Assembly (NCBI RefSeq): GCF_024436435.1
Contig: NZ_JAFMZP010000004.1
Location: 682,001 to 746,000 of the forward strand
DNA: 64,000 nucleotides
Direction: 5' to 3'
Origin: Desertivirga xinjiangensis
GTDB lineage: Bacteria > Bacteroidota > Bacteroidia > Sphingobacteriales > Sphingobacteriaceae
The notes under the pieces are model-generated. The model did not search any database, had not been told where the DNA came from, and saw only the letters and a list, made by a program, of their open reading frames with translations. Both the position numbers and the translations under genes were made by a program. Below, piece after piece: positions 8,682 through 15,304 of the stretch. Positions within the stretch are counted from its first letter, which is position 1. Each line of letters opens with the position of its first letter.

Positions 8682-10004
8682 TCAGTCGATCAATTGATCC
8701 AGAGTTGTAAATATTTCTTCTGTATGCAGGATATACATACCTAAGCGTTCCTCTGATATACCGTGTTTTATTTTATAAGAAAACACAGGTTTTTCGTTAA
8801 CGAAATTACACTCAAAGTACTGAAATGCTATCCCATCGAGCTTCTTTAATTCATCTGTGATCTCTGTGAAGTGGCTGGAGATCATGAATTTAGAGCGGTG
8901 GATCATTGATAGTTTTGAAGTGATTAGCAGGGTAGCTTCAAATGCGTCTTTCAGGTTTGTGCCTCGGAAGAGTTCGTCAAATATTACGAAGACCTCTCCA
9001 TGCTCTGCAAGCTTGGTAATCGTCTTTTTAATTCTTTTAACTTCACTATAAAAATGGCTTAATCCCTCATGAAGGTTATCTGGCAAGTTGATGGTTGTTA
9101 TCAAACCTTTAAATACCGGAAGCCTGATTTTCTCGGCGGGTACTGGAAAACCCAAATGGGACAAGTATACAGCGATACCAACAGCTTTCAGAAACGACGA
9201 TTTACCAGCCATGTTGGGTCCGGTTAGGAATATTACGTTGGTTTTTTCATCAATATAAGAATCGTTGCTTACAGGTTCACTTATTCCAGGATGAATAAGT
9301 TTTTCAAATGAAATATCCTGGCTCTTATCCTGATGAAATTTTGGGTAACACCAACCCTGCTTGTCAGACAGAGCGGCAAGCGATCCAAGCACATCGATCT
9401 CGTAAACAAATTCTAAAAATTCTTTTATACGATCCTTTTTTTGTTTCCTAAAAAGGTTGTCCAGGTAGTTTATTTGGAAACAGCGTAAGGGTTTGTCGGA
9501 TGGGATTAGCTTTTTCAAAACATCATCTTGCAGGATCTCTTTTACATGCTCAATCTGTTTTCCAAAACGATCCGGAAGATCCGGTTCCTTTACCTTATTA
9601 AAAAGTATTGAAAAAGATTTTAGTAACACCAGGAGGTTTTCGATCCCGGTAATGATCTGGTAGTGGTCCTGGCTTGGATTGATTTTGTAGTTATAATGAT
9701 CGTATAGGGCGTCAATAGGATTATTTGACAAACATTTTTTATTGAAAGACAGGTAGTAGTCAATTGAATCAAGCTGATGATAATTGAGTTCGATGTTAAA
9801 ATTTTTGTTCCTACAAAATTTTATAGATCTTACTCTTTCCTCAAGCACGATTTTGTTACTTAAGGGCTCCTGCATCATTCTATACAGTAATTTTGCACCA
9901 CCTGCCGTCTGAGTTTTATCATAAATTGAATAGATGCTATCTCCTGTATCATTATGGAAGATCCCCAGATCCCTGTATGTTTCGTTGTCTATCTCAAAAC
10001 TCAT
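8682..10004 (-). CDS. Short MutS-family ATPase (lacks the mismatch-recognition domain)
   Basis: Protein of 440 aa made of a MutS core/lever region (about residues 1-230) and the ABC-type ATPase domain V. Walker A is GPNMAGKSS near residues 261-269, and the Walker B region is FVIFDELFRGTNLKDAFEA, followed by the conserved SSHFTEI segment. The N-terminal mismatch-binding and connector domains of true MutS (about 850 aa) are absent. So is the Smr nuclease domain of MutS2, and mismatch repair by itself is therefore unlikely. Bacteroidota genomes commonly carry such short MutS-like proteins of unknown role. It is monocistronic, lying between two terminators. DNA junction or branch binding is possible but is inference. 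Confidence 0.85.
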   Translation of the reverse strand: MSFEIDNETYRDLGIFHNDTGDSIYSIYDKTQTAGGAKLLYRMMQEPLSNKIVLEERVRSIKFCRNKNFNIELNYHQLDSIDYYLSFNKKCLSNNPIDALYDHYNYKINPSQDHYQIITGIENLLVLLKSFSILFNKVKEPDLPDRFGKQIEHVKEILQDDVLKKLIPSDKPLRCFQINYLDNLFRKQKKDRIKEFLEFVYEIDVLGSLAALSDKQGWCYPKFHQDKSQDISFEKLIHPGISEPVSNDSYIDEKTNVIFLTGPNMAGKSSFLKAVGIAVYLSHLGFPVPAEKIRLPVFKGLITTINLPDNLHEGLSHFYSEVKRIKKTITKLAEHGEVFVIFDELFRGTNLKDAFEATLLITSKLSMIHRSKFMISSHFTEITDELKKLDGIAFQYFECNFVNEKPVFSYKIKHGISEERLGMYILHTEEIFTTLDQLID

Positions 10005-10136: not shown

Positions 10137-10733
10137 TCAGTGATCATCATGATCTCCCTCTACAACATGGAGCGGGAACTTCAACGTAAAGTCAGCTGAA
10201 CCGCCAAAGCGAACATGGTTTGCATCATCCCAATCTGCAGCAGTAGTTTTTGACTTATCCAGGCCGTGACGAAGTACCGCAGTTAAGGTCATAGAGCCGT
10301 CGGATGGTTTAAGAGTTGACAAGCGTCCTGTTACACCAACCTTATCATCTTCATAAGTATAATCCAGCACACCTTCCTGTGCTCCGGTGATAAACATCTG
10401 GTGCTCATCAGCTTCTTCAACGAATTCATCCTGCATCTCGCGGCCGGCAAAATCATAAGCTACTACCTTCAGGCGGTAAACTGCATCTGCATGCAGATCG
10501 TAGTGGCTTCTTGTTGCATTGCCATCTGCACCGAACACAATTTTAACCGTGTCGGTTGTTTCGTGGAAATGATCATCATCTGCCTCCAGTTCTATAAAAT
10601 TGAACACAACGCTCTTGAATTCTTCCTGGGCAACTTCCGGCTCTGGATCATCTTTTTTACAAGCATTGAACGTTAAAATCAAGCCGGTTGCAAGTGTTGT
10701 TGCAATGATTCGGTACATCTTAGTGATAGTCAT
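10137..10733 (-). CDS. His/Asp-rich outer-membrane or periplasmic lipoprotein (putative metal-binding), copy A
   Basis: Protein of 198 aa from the preferred ATG at 10733; a start nine codons upstream is possible but would displace the signal peptide. The lipobox is TFNAC, with Cys25 lipidated, followed by KKDDPEPE. The mature part has metal-ligand-like clusters: DDDHFHE near the start, HYDLHADAVYRLKVVAYDF in the middle, and the terminal HVVEGDHDDH. It is clearly paralogous to the lipoprotein at 14609-15304: same order, same HFH, LHADAVY/LHLEADAIY and Asp-His tail. It is the last gene of a minus-strand operon after a CxxC protein and a ZnuD-like TonB receptor. The role in capturing a transition metal (Zn or Cu) is inferred from composition and context. 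The family was not recognised by name. Confidence 0.8.
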   Translation of the reverse strand: MTITKMYRIIATTLATGLILTFNACKKDDPEPEVAQEEFKSVVFNFIELEADDDHFHETTDTVKIVFGADGNATRSHYDLHADAVYRLKVVAYDFAGREMQDEFVEEADEHQMFITGAQEGVLDYTYEDDKVGVTGRLSTLKPSDGSMTLTAVLRHGLDKSKTTAADWDDANHVRFGGSADFTLKFPLHVVEGDHDDH

Positions 10734-10776
10734 TTTATTGAAAATTAAAGTGTTAAACATTTATTGATTATGATTA

Positions 10777-13089
10777 TTAAAATTTGAAAATGGTCCTGAT
10801 CGTGATATTTCTCCCCTGATCATGAGAATAATATTTGAACCGGTTCATGTATTCTTTATACAAAGTGTTAAAAAGATTATCTACGGATGCGTTTAATACC
10901 AGTGTGTTTTTTCCCAATTTGAGTTCGGTACCACCCTGTATGCCGAACAAATGGTAAGCTGGGGGTGGCGGCATATAGTCGCTTGATTCCACATACCTGT
11001 TCTGCCGGGCCACGTACAGATGTTTCACATTGATGTAGCTTCCTGTGATTTTTTCATCGGCTCTTAAAAAGTATGTCAGGCTGTTTTCAATACGGTCGGA
11101 AGGGATCCAAGGCAGGTAACCATCTGTGTTGAGGTTTTTCGCTCTCACCAAAGCTCCTTTCAGTCCATAATCAAGGCCTCTTAAAATACGGTATGTTAAG
11201 CCAATATCACCGCCTGAAAATAGCGCATCCGCTTGTTTGTAATAAAACTCAGGAAACGTTCCCCTAATACTTTGATAAAAATTACCTGTAGGCTCCAGAT
11301 AGATATAATTATTAATCCGGTTAAGGAAAATGCTGAGATCAAGGCTCAGCTTATTGCCATGGTGCTCCGCCGAAGTGATCCATTTATAACTTTTTTCACT
11401 TTCGAGACCAGGATCACCGATCTCGAAGGCAGCAGAGCCATGGTGCAGTCCGTTACTAAAGAGCTCGCTTACCACAGGAGGCCTCCAGGCGGAAGCGAGA
11501 TTAGAACGCAGTGCCCATTGGTTTGGCAGGTTAAGCACACCTCCAAGGCTTGCTGAAAAGTTATTAAATTCCCCTGTACCTCCGTACAAATTCTGTTCAA
11601 TATCATAACCTAATGCATCCTGGTATTTATGGTCAAATCGGATGCCGGCTTCCAGCTCATAATTGTTTTTACTCAGCTTCGTGATATAATACAGACCTGC
11701 ATTATACGTGTCGTAGTTTGGAATAAGAGGAATGACGGATGTTCCCGGAACGTTGTTATTTACCTGCAGCAATCCGTTTACTCCCAGAGTCTGTTTCCAG
11801 CCTGCACTACTAAAACTTTCCAGGAACAAATCCAGGGTTTGCGTGGTGAGTGTAAGGTCAAGGGAGGGAATGCTGCTTCTTCCTCCGCGACGTTTATCAT
11901 ATTCCTGACGGGTATTGCGCTGAAAGCCATAGATGAGATCAATATGAGTGTTACTGTTTAGATGAAAATGGCTTTCCAGTTTCAATAGGCTATGAGCTAC
12001 GTCTTGTCGCGGAGCATCGATACGATAGCTGAAGTCTGCCTCCTGAAAAGGCCTGCCATTGGCGATGACCGCTTTAAGATCCTCGATGCTGCCCACGTGG
12101 GAACCGCCGAATATTCCAACCTCGGTTTGAAAGTGGCTGAAATAGAGATCAGTTTCAAATTTCTTACGCGAATATCCAAGCGCACCGGAAAAGTTAAGCT
12201 CCCGTAATCCTGTATTCTCCAGGTAATAGTCAGCAGTCTCTATATTTCCCGAGGTTTTTGCAGTGCCTTGCAATCGCCAGGCCAAGCCCGGGAACTTACT
12301 AACCCCTCCTTCGACTCGACCTGAGATAGCACCTGCAGCTCCATTCGAAGAGCCGGTAAGGTTTAACTCTCCTTTTATTTCAGGCTGCTTCGGTAGAGGA
12401 GAGGGTTTCACAAGGATGACCCCGCCGATAGCCTCGGGGCCATATCTTACACCTTCTGCACCCTTAATCACCGTTACCGACTGTGCTACAAAAGGGTCTA
12501 TTTCTGGTGCGTGCTCCATACCCCATTGCTGTCCTTCCTGCCGGATACCATTGTTTAGTATCAGAAGACGATTGCTGTGGAGACCCTGAATTACAGGCTT
12601 CGAAATCGACGAACCTGTCTGAAGTGTGCTTACTCCCGGAACTGTTTTAAGCGCATCGGCAAGTGTACCTCCTCTTGTTTGCTCAAGCTGCTTACCTGAT
12701 ACCGTTACAGCTTTGTTTAGTCCTGAAGTAACAGGCTTTCTTCCCTTGACCACAACTTCGTCAAGCTTTACATCTGACCGTTGCAATGGAAGAGTAAGAT
12801 CCAGGTCGGATGTGACGGAAAGTTTCCTTTCATAGACATTGTAGCCTATGGCGTTAACCGTCAGTATAATGGTGCCATCACATAGCTTGTTTAGGCTAAA
12901 ATGACCGTGCTCATCAGTGTAAGAGGTTCGGTTGGACGTAGATATTCTGATGGAAGCGCCGGGAACAGATTCTTTCGAAAGCGAATCTGTAATAAGGCCT
13001 TCCACGCGGAAGCGACAATTAGTTTGCTGGGCAAACAAAGATCTGGAAAAACAAACGAGTGTAAGGATAATAAATACCCGGTACTTCAT
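10777..13089 (-). CDS. TonB-dependent outer-membrane receptor, ZnuD-like, with CarboxypepD_reg N-terminal domain
   Basis: Outer-membrane active transporter of 770 aa. I chose the ATG at 13089 because it gives the signal peptide MKYRVFIILTLVCFSRSLFA; a longer reading frame starts at 13161. A carboxypeptidase-regulatory-like domain follows (residues about 25-110), then the TonB-box/plug start LDEVVVKGRKP. The plug has IQGLHSNRLLILNNGIRQEG and QQWGMEHAPEIDPF, which is the pattern of ZnuD-type metal receptors. The beta-barrel ends in an aromatic residue (TIRTIFKF), as expected for BAM recognition. It is flanked upstream by a CxxC exported protein and downstream (16 bp to the most upstream ATG) by a His-rich lipoprotein. 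A transition-metal substrate is inferred, with zinc or copper most likely. Confidence 0.88.
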   Translation of the reverse strand: MKYRVFIILTLVCFSRSLFAQQTNCRFRVEGLITDSLSKESVPGASIRISTSNRTSYTDEHGHFSLNKLCDGTIILTVNAIGYNVYERKLSVTSDLDLTLPLQRSDVKLDEVVVKGRKPVTSGLNKAVTVSGKQLEQTRGGTLADALKTVPGVSTLQTGSSISKPVIQGLHSNRLLILNNGIRQEGQQWGMEHAPEIDPFVAQSVTVIKGAEGVRYGPEAIGGVILVKPSPLPKQPEIKGELNLTGSSNGAAGAISGRVEGGVSKFPGLAWRLQGTAKTSGNIETADYYLENTGLRELNFSGALGYSRKKFETDLYFSHFQTEVGIFGGSHVGSIEDLKAVIANGRPFQEADFSYRIDAPRQDVAHSLLKLESHFHLNSNTHIDLIYGFQRNTRQEYDKRRGGRSSIPSLDLTLTTQTLDLFLESFSSAGWKQTLGVNGLLQVNNNVPGTSVIPLIPNYDTYNAGLYYITKLSKNNYELEAGIRFDHKYQDALGYDIEQNLYGGTGEFNNFSASLGGVLNLPNQWALRSNLASAWRPPVVSELFSNGLHHGSAAFEIGDPGLESEKSYKWITSAEHHGNKLSLDLSIFLNRINNYIYLEPTGNFYQSIRGTFPEFYYKQADALFSGGDIGLTYRILRGLDYGLKGALVRAKNLNTDGYLPWIPSDRIENSLTYFLRADEKITGSYINVKHLYVARQNRYVESSDYMPPPPAYHLFGIQGGTELKLGKNTLVLNASVDNLFNTLYKEYMNRFKYYSHDQGRNITIRTIFKF

Positions 13090-13188
13090 AAAATATACGA
13101 TTAAAATGATGATGCGCAGCAGACGCATGCAATAGCCTAAAGGCAATAAGCTTATGAACAAATTATCCGCAGGATACGTGAGAGGATA

Positions 13189-13563
13189 TTATGCTATGGG
13201 TGGGCCCTTATTTGTCCAGGTGTGGACACAGCGGTCAAATAAACTTTCTGTGAAAGATGCAGGCAACACAGGAAGTTTTGTTTGGAAGATCAATGATGCT
13301 AGTCCCTGATGGTTGCTGAGATAACGTGATTGATGGTTTTGAATGTAATCACAAACCTTGCACTTGATCTCCGCCTTGTTAATCTCCGTATTTGAGGTGT
13401 TATAGATGTCTTTAACGGGTTTGATGACTTTACTGTTTTTACCTAACGATACAGAACAGGTCTCCTCATGATGGCTGTGTATGCATTGAGCCAACTGAGC
13501 CGCAGAGAAGATCAGCAGCAAGAGCAACGCAATGTAGTTATTTAAGCTTCGGAAATCTGTCAT
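13189..13563 (-). CDS. Small exported CxxC protein with C-terminal TNKGPP motif, copy A
   Basis: Hypothetical protein of 124 aa from the ATG at 13563; the ORF can start nine codons earlier. It has a hydrophobic N-terminal signal or anchor (YIALLLLLIFSAAQL), then HSHH, a Cys-containing linker, the motif KCKVCDY near residues 70-76, and near the C-terminus TWTNKGPPIA. The adjacent divergent gene at 13667 encodes a protein with the same layout. The arrangement recalls DUF2946 proteins of Proteobacteria, which have a signal peptide, a Cys/His pair and a terminal R-A/G-P-P, and which occur beside copper TonB receptors. That comparison is from memory and is an inference. It is the first gene of the minus-strand operon with the TonB receptor. 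A metallochaperone or metal-sensing role is plausible. Confidence 0.75.
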   Translation of the reverse strand: MTDFRSLNNYIALLLLLIFSAAQLAQCIHSHHEETCSVSLGKNSKVIKPVKDIYNTSNTEINKAEIKCKVCDYIQNHQSRYLSNHQGLASLIFQTKLPVLPASFTESLFDRCVHTWTNKGPPIA

Positions 13564-13666
13564 CACTATTAACGCCCACAAAAATGACATTTTTACCTGA
13601 TATAATGAAAATTTAACTAAAGTGTTCTAAAATTTTTACAATCCTATTTTAAAACTAAGAATATTA

Positions 13667-14083
13667 ATGCATCTTTGTTGCATATTGAAAAGGCAAAGAA
13701 TAATATGGCTAGATAGATTCCGTTCCGCAGGTTCGCTTATGCTGCTCATGCTTTTCCTTTCTGTGCCTTTGATCAATGTCTTCCATTATCACACTGCGGT
13801 AATGCAATGTGAACTGCCGGGGGATGATGAATATATAGATAGCCTTGGCGGTGTACCTGAGCGTACATTTAGCAACACACATATCGGCCCTGAAGTTGAT
13901 TCATGTAGGATATGCGATTACTTGGCTCATAAACAAGGTAGAGAACTTTACTTGTCTTTTCCTCCGCAACTAGTGCTTCCCATCCTGGAGCCAGTTATGC
14001 GAAATACTCCTGTAATTGCTGTGAACTATAAATTCACTCTCCAGGGCTTCACTAATAAAGGTCCCCCTTATTTGCTGGCCTGA
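13667..14083 (+). CDS. Small exported CxxC protein with C-terminal TNKGPP motif, copy B
   Basis: Hypothetical protein of 138 aa, divergent from and paralogous to the product of 13189-13563. Shared features are a basic N-terminus and hydrophobic segment (LMLLMLFLSVPLINV), His residues just after it (FHYH against HSHH), SCRICDYLAHKQ against KCKVCDYIQNHQ, and the ending FTNKGPPYLLA. The start is uncertain. The ATG at 13667 lies in GCATCTTTG, which itself resembles a -7 promoter element, so a downstream start such as the ATG at 13739 cannot be excluded; the basic residues before the hydrophobic segment favour the upstream one. It appears to head a plus-strand half-locus with a broken receptor gene and a second His-rich lipoprotein. 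Confidence 0.7.
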   Translation: MHLCCILKRQRIIWLDRFRSAGSLMLLMLFLSVPLINVFHYHTAVMQCELPGDDEYIDSLGGVPERTFSNTHIGPEVDSCRICDYLAHKQGRELYLSFPPQLVLPILEPVMRNTPVIAVNYKFTLQGFTNKGPPYLLA

Positions 14084-14252
14084 TATTAGTTCGAATGATT
14101 ACCGATTGTTTTTACGCAAAGCATATGTTAGAATATCTATTATATTTTAATATATAGCTGTAATTAAAACAGGTTTCATTTTTTTGAACATTCTCACAGG
14201 CCCTTCACTTCTTCAATCTCATAATATAATTTAATCGCATAAAGCGATGTAT

Positions 14253-14282
14253 CCTGAAGCTAACCAGTATTTCTGGTTCAGG
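14253..14282 (+). other. Bulged hairpin in the gap before the receptor remnant
   Basis: CCTGAAGCTAACCAG (14253-14267) pairs with CTGGTTCAGG (14273-14282) if a 5-base bulge is allowed. It is the only structured element I see in the 250-bp gap between copy B of the CxxC gene and the receptor remnant. Function unknown. Confidence 0.3.
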
Positions 14283-14336
14283 GACGTCGTCTGATCCTAT
14301 GTTGGTCAATAATACCGTCTTTACAATAAGCGCCGA

Positions 14337-14548
14337 ATGGTTCAATTCGTTATGGCATCTATCATTTTTATAGCAACAAATGCATCTGTGCAGGCAAAGC
14401 AGTTTATGTTTTCAGGATCTGTGACTTATACAGAAGGACAGCCATTGCCTGAAGTACAGATCAATGTGTCTGGCAGTTCGCTTAGCGTACACAATTCTTC
14501 CTACAACATGACGCTTTTAACTACGTAGGATACAACATTGACTATTAG
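14337..14548 (+). pseudogene. N-terminal stub of a TonB-dependent receptor or OMP (frameshifted, barrel deleted)
   Basis: A 63-codon ORF encodes a signal-like segment (FVMASIIFIATNASVQA) and then GSVTYTEGQPLPEVQINVSG, the usual beginning of a CarboxypepD_reg domain in Bacteroidota TonB receptors. It stops at 14526. In the shifted frame from 14513 the sequence reads AFNYVGYNIDY, which restores the expected (S/N)YVGY motif of that domain, and then hits a stop at 14546. The plug and the roughly 2 kb of beta-barrel are absent. The position mirrors the intact receptor of the opposite half-locus (CxxC protein, receptor, His-rich lipoprotein). I read it as the relic of a second receptor. A short standalone ORF is the alternative. 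Confidence 0.55.
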
Positions 14549-14590
14549 TAATCTCTCGTCTAATTAAAGAATAATATAAAGAATCACTTC

Positions 14591-14606
14591 AATCAATCAA
14601 TCAATC
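14591..14606 (+). repeat. (AATC)4 tetranucleotide repeat immediately before a start codon
   Basis: Four exact AATC units end two bases before the ATG of the second His-rich lipoprotein, and part of a fifth precedes them (CTTC-AATC...). The repeat occupies the ribosome-binding region. Slippage would change the leader but not the reading frame. Confidence 0.7.
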
Positions 14607-14608
14607 AA

Positions 14609-15304
14609 ATGAAACATTTAAAATCACTAAAATTCGCCTTTTTTGCAGCTATCATCATTGTATCGTCTGTAACGTCTTGTAAAAAAGATGACAATGATCC
14701 GGAACCAATAAAAGAAGGTATCGAACGCTCGGAACTGATCCTTACAGAAGTGAACGGGCATGCTCATGGAGATCATTTTCATGATCTGGCAGACATACCC
14801 GGAGCAACCCCAATTGTTATTAAATTTGACGAAAAGGGTACAGCTACCGCCAACGGCCATCTTCATCTGGAAGCAGATGCCATTTATAAAATACAGCTTA
14901 AAACTTGGGACTATACAGGTAAAGAAGTGCAAAACGACTATATTGCAAGCAAAGCTGTGGCTGATAACTATAAAGCATTCCTGGTGGGAGGCAATTTGAT
15001 TCTCAATCAAAACACGCAGAACGAAAGTGGAGCTATTTTTCAACCTAGGGAAGCTACTTATGGAGATGGAACCGCTGTATCGGGTGCGATCCAAACTACT
15101 GGAATATTGAGCTACTTTACTCTCGGGCACGAAAATGAAGGCGAGAAAGAAGTAAGCTATATCCTCAGAAAATTAAATAATGGTGTAAAAGCGACAATCA
15201 CCAGAGGCGATTGGAATCATAACGATTATGCAACTAAGTTTGCCGGAGAGGATGTACTTAAACTAAAGTTTGAGATCCATGCAGAGGGAGGGCATGATCA
15301 TTAA
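14609..15304 (+). CDS. His-rich lipoprotein (putative metal-binding), copy B
   Basis: Protein of 231 aa, paralogous to copy A at 10137-10733. The N-terminal signal has lipobox VTSC and is followed by KKDDNDPEPIKEG, close to the KKDDPEPE of copy A. The mature part has GHAHGDHFHDLAD, GHLHLEADAIYKIQLKTWDY and a terminal EIHAEGGHDH, all rich in potential metal ligands. It is longer than copy A by an insertion in the middle (about residues 130-165). It follows a degraded receptor stub and is preceded by an AATC repeat in its leader. Surface or periplasmic metal capture is inferred. A strong bidirectional terminator follows at 15311. Confidence 0.8.
   Translation: MKHLKSLKFAFFAAIIIVSSVTSCKKDDNDPEPIKEGIERSELILTEVNGHAHGDHFHDLADIPGATPIVIKFDEKGTATANGHLHLEADAIYKIQLKTWDYTGKEVQNDYIASKAVADNYKAFLVGGNLILNQNTQNESGAIFQPREATYGDGTAVSGAIQTTGILSYFTLGHENEGEKEVSYILRKLNNGVKATITRGDWNHNDYATKFAGEDVLKLKFEIHAEGGHDH

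Follow-up and report, generated by a model that had tools for sequence, protein, structure and literature searches.

SusCD is one example of the receptor-lipoprotein pairs of Bacteroidota. Further TonB-dependent receptors are ZnuD of Neisseria (PDB 4rdr) and the Zur-regulated ZnuK, ZnuL and ZnuM of Caulobacter (PMC4176598). CruR, a DUF2946 protein encoded at the head of an operon for a copper receptor, functions as a nascent-chain switch; its CXXC and RAPP motifs are 45 residues apart (PMC9426467). CutF-like leaders are numerous in Bacteroidota, with TonB genes among their commonest neighbours overall, and the word zinc is absent from the main text of the paper describing them (PMC9973294). 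In a Caulobacter zur mutant, two DUF2946 genes were changed, one of which heads a zinc-efflux operon with a Zur site (PMC4176598). Here, a locus of Desertivirga xinjiangensis (Sphingobacteriaceae) is described in which a receptor, two lipoproteins and two leaders of this kind are combined. It lies at positions 10137-15304 of the window, i.e. the whole analysed stretch of 64,000 nucleotides (contig NZ_JAFMZP010000004.1, positions 682,001 to 746,000), in a genome of 5.5 Mb on 26 contigs. The locus likely serves zinc scavenging under the joint control of Zur and of leaders acting through their nascent chains, and one of its receptors has probably been lost.

The locus consists of two divergent gene sets, and the open reading frames (ORFs) proposed earlier from the letters alone (the sequence-only reading) were confirmed at their coordinates. 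On the minus strand, the leader ORF CxxC-A (leader A, 13189..13590) is located directly before RecA (10777..13161), a ZnuD-like TonB-dependent receptor, which is followed by the lipoprotein LipA (10137..10760, lipobox Cys34). The plus strand carries leader B (CxxC-B, 13667..14083), a possible receptor B remnant (14337..14528) and the lipoprotein LipB (14609..15304). The divergent gap holds the palindrome ATGCATCTTTGTTGCAT (13667..13683), a predicted Zur box which overlaps the annotated start of leader B; this start is uncertain, with the first ATG inside the palindrome. The paralogy of both outer pairs held: LipA and LipB are 28% identical (blastp E 7e-20), and CxxC-A and CxxC-B share 34% identity over 71 C-terminal columns (E 1e-8). 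None of the small proteins and lipoproteins of the locus matched a Pfam or NCBIfam family over the cut-off. The proposed uptake of a transition metal was supported, and zinc is the most likely metal because the palindrome is of the Zur type, ZnuD is the closest solved relative of the receptor and two zinc-site His appear conserved.

The ZnuD-like receptor and its lipoprotein partner

RecA contains CarboxypepD_reg, Plug and barrel domains (Pfam), and the plug motif QQWGMEHAPE, taken before as a sign of zinc receptors, is present. Its true start is probably the ATG at 13089 (M25), which is nearly invariant in the receptor alignment. ZnuD was the nearest solved relative with an E-value of 4e-49 by profile and 2e-18 by single sequence, followed by 9gbc (an unnamed TonB-linked receptor), PhuR and OprC in the profile search and by OprC in the single-sequence search. 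On the NCBIfam ZnuD model NF038289, RecA scored 99.4 bits, far under the cut-off of 950, and it is therefore named ZnuD-like only. The best NCBIfam profile was TonB-hemin with 154.3 bits (cut-off 316.85), and TonB-copper reached 80.8 bits, likewise under its cut-off. The zinc site of ZnuD includes H100, E340 and H499 plus the Asp before H100 (PMC4557270). In a HMMER alignment read by eye (numbering offset 14, identical at H100 and H499), H217 of RecA aligned with H100, H573 with H499 and E216 with the Asp preceding H100, while no equivalent of E340 was identified. Thus, two zinc-site His of ZnuD appear to be kept in RecA. His occupies the position of H573 in 92 of 94 receptors and that of H217 in all 94, 80 of which had been selected by a pattern including H217. 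Compared with ZnuD, RecA has an extra CarboxypepD_reg domain, a near-constant lipoprotein partner and a leader ORF.

The conservation of the set was studied in the best 80 of 586 relatives, among them two genomes of the same genus (genus mates); loci were fetched by receptor alignment alone and lipoprotein relatives were detected with an iterated profile. A member of the lipoprotein family was found in 65 of the 80 loci, directly downstream of the receptor in 63 (median step 19 nt), upstream in one and elsewhere in one, and it is next to the receptor in 64. The other 15 loci comprise five at a contig end and ten that lack a lipoprotein. A leader with a C-terminal [KR][GA]PP was present upstream of the receptor in 33/80 loci, and in 27/80 of these receptor-selected loci it occurred together with an adjacent lipoprotein, so that the three families proposed to form a set do co-occur in other genomes. 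The order of the parts varies. G016 encodes a leader, the receptor, LipA and LipB, and these are followed by another receptor in convergent orientation, which has a leader of its own. In G029 a MerC gene is followed by a leader, receptor B, a pair of DUF4625 lipoproteins and LipB, while LipA is encoded on a different contig. A tandem of receptor, LipA and LipB is present in Chitinophaga YR627. In Capnocytophaga (L129 and L133), arrays of three and six ORFs of the lipoprotein family were seen behind a single receptor.

Neither LipA nor LipB belongs to a Pfam family or matched an NCBIfam model over the cut-off. Cys1, His87, Gly109, His132 and Asp157 (mature numbering) are invariant in 56 LipA-type proteins. 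The His clusters described in the sequence-only reading (HFH, HDH/HDDH) exist in both proteins and are absent from many relatives. Including the signal peptide, the His content is 4.8% in LipA and 5.2% in LipB; since the median of 88 family sequences is 1.6% and 32 of them have two His or fewer, the clusters are a trait of LipA and LipB and not of the family. For LipA, the two invariant His are the stronger candidates for a metal site, because the clusters are missing in many relatives. In the five LipB proteins, the places of these two His are taken by Tyr/Phe and Lys/Arg/Glu. HGDHFH is kept in all five and HxHL in four (not in L075), the LipB of the window having HGDHFH and HLHL.

LipA and LipB were modelled with AlphaFold2 at a mean predicted local distance difference test (pLDDT) of 93.9 and 86.6, respectively, and both are predicted to fold as an immunoglobulin (Ig)-like sandwich. 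Foldseek gave no match to the LipA model at E ≤ 0.001. With VIA, the best Z-score of LipA was 8.6 (nuclear pore Ig-like), with values up to 7.8 for RhoGDI, and that of LipB was 6.5; the two models had the same best solved matches. None of these structure comparisons gave a convincing known fold for the lipoproteins. The arrangement resembles SusCD in that a receptor has an adjacent lipoprotein, but here the partner is a putative Ig-like sandwich of 190-230 amino acids without a Pfam family. LipA, the putative zinc-binding partner of the receptor, and LipB may both bind zinc and be exposed on the cell surface.

The mirrored halves with both outer pairs paralogous had suggested a recent inverted duplication of one operon. 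This explanation is extremely improbable. LipA shares 86% and 78% identity with its counterparts in the genus mates, and LipB is 69% and 58% identical to the LipB of G029 and G016, which belong to other genera, versus only 28% between LipA and LipB. When 34 lipoproteins were placed in a tree, all five LipB (from the window and four other genomes) grouped in one clade with a support of 100/100, and the approximately unbiased (AU) test, likewise on the lipoproteins, rejected a clade of LipA plus LipB with p 2e-40. The split of LipA and LipB is thus ancient and LipB represents an old paralogous clade. Together with the different order of the parts in other genomes, this rules out the inverted duplication for the lipoproteins.

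The ORF at 14337-14528 (63 codons) had been called a receptor stub. It does resemble a receptor start, namely a signal peptide and a partial CarboxypepD_reg-like beginning, but the matches are weak and alone not significant: Pfam CarboxypepD_reg gave an E-value of 0.076, the receptor profile 7.4 bits and tblastn across the gap 0.12 at best. With a receptor-B query, only RecA was found in the genome at E ≤ 1e-20. The locus is adjoined by an unrelated neighbour (8682-10004, minus strand), a stand-alone protein of 440 amino acids with MutS domains III and V. Searches of the window against Rfam (at the gathering threshold) and for tRNA gave no matches.

The palindrome and its neighbours

The palindrome at 13667-13683 is the only site within two mismatches in the 64-kb window. 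Its position weight matrix (PWM) score was 21.3, compared with a mean of -0.5 and a 95th percentile of 8.4 for 597 random 411-bp pieces; their 99th percentile was as high as 28.7 because the pieces came from palindrome-centred loci. ATGCANCTTTGNTGCAT has one further match without mismatch in the genome, before a third leader described below. Upstream of the receptor operons (-300..+60 of the operon start), sites within two mismatches of TGCAACANTGTTGCA were found in 47/78 loci, while 0.2 were expected from dinucleotide shuffles; L143 (upstream region too short) and L173 (25 N) had been dropped from the 80 loci by a script rule. Upstream of other ORFs of at least 200 amino acids the palindrome was present in only 15/557 cases, mostly neighbours divergent from the receptor operon and one lipoprotein.

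When ORFs of at least 100 amino acids were included, 31 rows carried the palindrome; Dyadobacter contributed six Fur genes and five MerC-like genes to them. Pfam confirmed the six Fur genes and all four MerC genes scanned; phmmer with two MerC proteins found one MerC gene in the 80 loci, fewer than Pfam. In the six Dyadobacter loci concerned (L116, L117, L119, L120, L135 and L138), receptor and Fur gene are clustered with MerC adjoining (checked by Pfam in L116, L119, L120 and L138). In all six, the palindrome precedes the receptor operon and is also present no more than 300 bp from the Fur gene, and five (not L135) have the lipoprotein.

Two blind scans were performed. In 151 genomes of the order, six exact palindrome sites were detected versus none with the reversed control. 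One is located between CobW and MerC genes, one by a TonB receptor, one in an unclear context and one about 40 bp before a LipB gene, which was located without the use of LipB. The other two (L072, G170:C28:34144; L074, G151:C1:4816044) are beside a pinensin-like lanthipeptide precursor of 63 amino acids, which passes the NCBIfam pinensin model NF038180 in L072 and is nearly the same by eye in L074. A zinc control of the lanthipeptide is conceivable at these two loci.

In 295 genomes of the class, the exact 16-base palindrome occurred at 11 sites in nine genomes, again with no site in the reversed control. Six of these sites are beside Fur-family genes: three have MerC as well, one has ZnuA (Pfam E 6e-52), one has CobW and one is behind a DUF308-like membrane gene. 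Two sites precede a leader and a receptor with 41% and 38% identity to RecA, two are by DUF4625 lipoproteins (one with a TonB receptor) and one is by an ABC ATPase, which is 58% identical to the ATPase of the third leader locus. G049, G227 and G254 carry the exact palindrome at both the Fur gene and the leader-receptor operon. ZnuA is a classical Zur target. In many bacteria, Zur sites precede genes of the COG0523/CobW family (PMC2770081). As the neighbours found by the blind scans are Fur-family, ZnuA, CobW and MerC genes, the palindrome is probably the Zur box of these bacteria.

Two side observations were made at these sites. DUF4625 lipoproteins recur beside the palindrome (L178, L185 and L013) and might represent another family of lipoproteins linked to zinc; in the open-access library searched, no paper mentions DUF4625. 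At L013 (6191-6874 and 7016), folE, encoding GTP cyclohydrolase I (Pfam E 7e-60), adjoins LipB in G029, and a weaker palindrome (PWM 15.1) is located between the two genes.

Two Fur-family genes of the D. xinjiangensis genome exceeded the Pfam cut-off, a typical one (102.8 bits) and a divergent one (35.1 bits). The latter protein is 61% identical to the Fur protein encoded beside receptor and LipA in G008, and its gene (G000:C6:44526-44939) is the candidate Zur gene on the basis of these comparisons. A search of an open-access library, largely without full texts, gave no paper dealing with Bacteroidota Zur boxes, with a TonB system for zinc in this phylum or with its zinc uptake across the outer membrane; the available parts of papers on Riemerella ZntR, the F. 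johnsoniae ribosome and COG0523 contained no Bacteroidota Zur box.

Probable leader proteins at the head of the operons

Leader A has 133 and leader B 138 amino acids, and the N-termini of both show a basic start and a hydrophobic stretch as judged by eye. The true start of leader A is probably M10 at 13563. The spacing between CxxC and the C-terminal KGPP is 47 in both, with PP two residues from the end in leader A and four in leader B. Among the ORFs of 60-230 amino acids in the window, only these two end in [KR][GA]PP. RecA starts 27-99 nt behind leader A, depending on the receptor start chosen, and behind leader B the stub follows at 253 nt and LipB at 525 nt. The sequence-only reading had taken the CxxC proteins for components of the uptake operon. 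They do head the operons; by their anatomy, i.e. CxxC, C-terminal KGPP and the spacing of 47, they are better read as regulatory leaders of the CutF/CruR type than as metal-handling components.

This anatomy was compared in 48 leader sequences, 15 from a collected set and 33 from the 80 receptor loci, with one genome in both. PP is 2-12 residues from the end in all 48, and a CxxC at a spacing of 41-49 from [KR][GA]PP is present in 30. The other 18 are without such a CxxC, and sensing through CxxC can therefore not be general. Among the 33 leaders that immediately precede a receptor, 18 carry a CxxC, so that the rest would need other ligands if all are sensors. Outside the conserved motifs the leaders diverge, with 15-49% identity to leader A. 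Pfam DUF2946 (PF11162) gave no match on leaders A and B, and only one of 15 family members exceeded its cut-off (L017, 27.2 vs 23.7 bits); the window leaders are therefore classed as CruR/CutF-like and not as DUF2946 members. They resemble CruR and CutF as small, probably exported ORFs heading a TonB operon with CxxC and a C-terminal PP at a spacing of 47, compared to 45 in CruR. They differ from CruR in KGPP, a variant of RAPP, in the missing DUF2946 match and in the zinc-type box upstream, and the metal and the mechanism are predictions here.

A third leader locus is present in the same genome (G000:C21:397734-411000; L042 and L093). Its leader has CxxC...NKGPP, again with a spacing of 47 as in all three leaders found in this genome, and the palindrome is at the leader start. 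Downstream are genes for an ABC ATPase, two permeases of the ABC-2 type (DUF3526), a TonB receptor and a lipoprotein. The receptor is nearest to MxcH and the lipoprotein is DUF4374-like, both under the cut-off. The locus is similar to ZnuGHI-ZnuK of Caulobacter, an ABC-2 transporter with a TonB receptor (PMC4176598), from which it differs in the added leader ORF and DUF4374-like lipoprotein and in the receptor type.

Leader and box were counted in 79 receptor operons: 36 carried the box without a leader and 21 a leader without the box, while both were present in 11 and absent from another 11. The plus half of the window has both. The box was thus present in 11/32 operons with a leader and in 36/47 without one (raw Fisher p 4e-4). 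This raw exclusion would fit a replacement of one by the other, but it vanished when relatedness was controlled (10 independent pairs on the receptor tree, median p 1), and a mutual exclusion was discarded.

Proposed mechanism and its rivals

When zinc is scarce, a Zur-type Fur repressor would leave the palindrome between the halves and transcription would start. Each mRNA would begin with a small exported leader with signal peptide, His/CxxC and C-terminal KGPP. The nascent chain of the leader might sense the metal via CxxC and tune the downstream genes by ribosome stalling, as CruR does for the copper receptor. The receptor would import zinc across the outer membrane through its ZnuD-like site, and LipA, encoded directly behind it, may capture or hand over zinc. 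On the plus strand, the receptor of this half was probably lost, and leader B and LipB would be all that is still expressed; LipB might assist the one receptor left by additional binding. The computation establishes the gene content, the conservation of the set, the palindrome with its neighbours, the ancient split of the lipoproteins and the leader anatomy, whereas Zur repression, the sensing of zinc by the leaders and ribosome stalling are predicted steps; the zinc response of the leaders is deduced from the operon which they head. That the leaders of Bacteroidota generally are zinc-sensing nascent-chain switches, a post-transcriptional sensor on top of Zur or in its place, is proposed tentatively and appears somewhat less probable than its opposite.

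Several results weigh against this mechanism. The NCBIfam scores of the Fur proteins were all under the cut-offs and did not separate Zur from Fur/PerR; PerR and iron Fur scored above Zur for the L018 protein, and iron Fur just above Zur for the one of D. xinjiangensis, whose zur-like gene has no palindrome (PWM -0.2). Within two mismatches of TGCAACANTGTTGCA, 23 sites were found in this genome (reversed control 8), mostly inside ORFs. Inspection of 21 revealed one intergenic site without clear metal genes and one at the third leader, and the remaining two correspond to the site in the window and to a further intergenic one. As the matches in this genome amount to two at leaders plus one or two elsewhere between genes, the regulon looks small. 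Half of the leader operons (16/32) have no box even at three mismatches. The two genus mates lack a palindrome ahead of leader A, with PWM scores at noise level (4.6 and 1.6). Leader A may therefore not be under the window box; the box clearly fits leader B, and an effect on the leader A side is a guess. RNA folding 3' of the leader was not unusual for leader A (z -0.58) and stronger for leader B (z -2.55); the mean across leaders was -1.74 with 21/47 below -2, all against mononucleotide shuffles, which are a weak null. Finally, the known leaders CruR and CutF sense copper.

The last point would be explained if copper were taken up instead of zinc, with the leaders as CruR-like copper sensors and RecA as an OprC-like copper importer. 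OprC comes next after ZnuD by single sequence (by profile, 9gbc and PhuR intervene) and TonB-copper gave its score below the cut-off. Yet the neighbours of the palindrome are of the zinc type (ZnuA, CobW, MerC and Fur), ZnuD is the best match among solved structures and two of its zinc-site His appear to be kept, which makes copper unlikely. Even less probable is iron or haem uptake with RecA as a haem or siderophore receptor. Although TonB-hemin is the best NCBIfam profile, PhuR is among the solved relatives and the neighbours belong to the Fur family, ZnuD is the best solved match and the palindrome is common to ZnuA and CobW; this assignment is very improbable.

The strongest rival accepts zinc uptake but sees in the CxxC proteins common small proteins of the periplasm that bind metal or act as chaperones, and not translated regulatory leaders. 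In its favour, they appear to be exported and contain His and CxxC, a CxxC at the expected place is missing in 18 of 48 and the stem-loop is not consistent. However, [KR][GA]PP close to the C-terminus, the near-fixed spacing from CxxC to PP and the variable rest are arrest-peptide-like, and the leader sits directly before the receptor. This rival is judged rather unlikely, though clearly more probable than copper. For the locus itself, zinc scavenging under Zur and leaders remains the preferred explanation.

The locus offers a testable operator, a candidate receptor and a lipoprotein family that has no name yet and in which three polar residues are invariant. The putative zinc operons are headed here by leaders of the CutF/CruR type, while the two worked-out leaders sense copper, and the link of such leaders to zinc so far consists only of the DUF2946 genes changed in the Caulobacter zur mutant. 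According to the authors of the CruR study, no riboswitch is known for Cu or Zn (PMC9426467). If the proposed mechanism is true, a protein leader for zinc would close the gap left by the missing Zn riboswitch.

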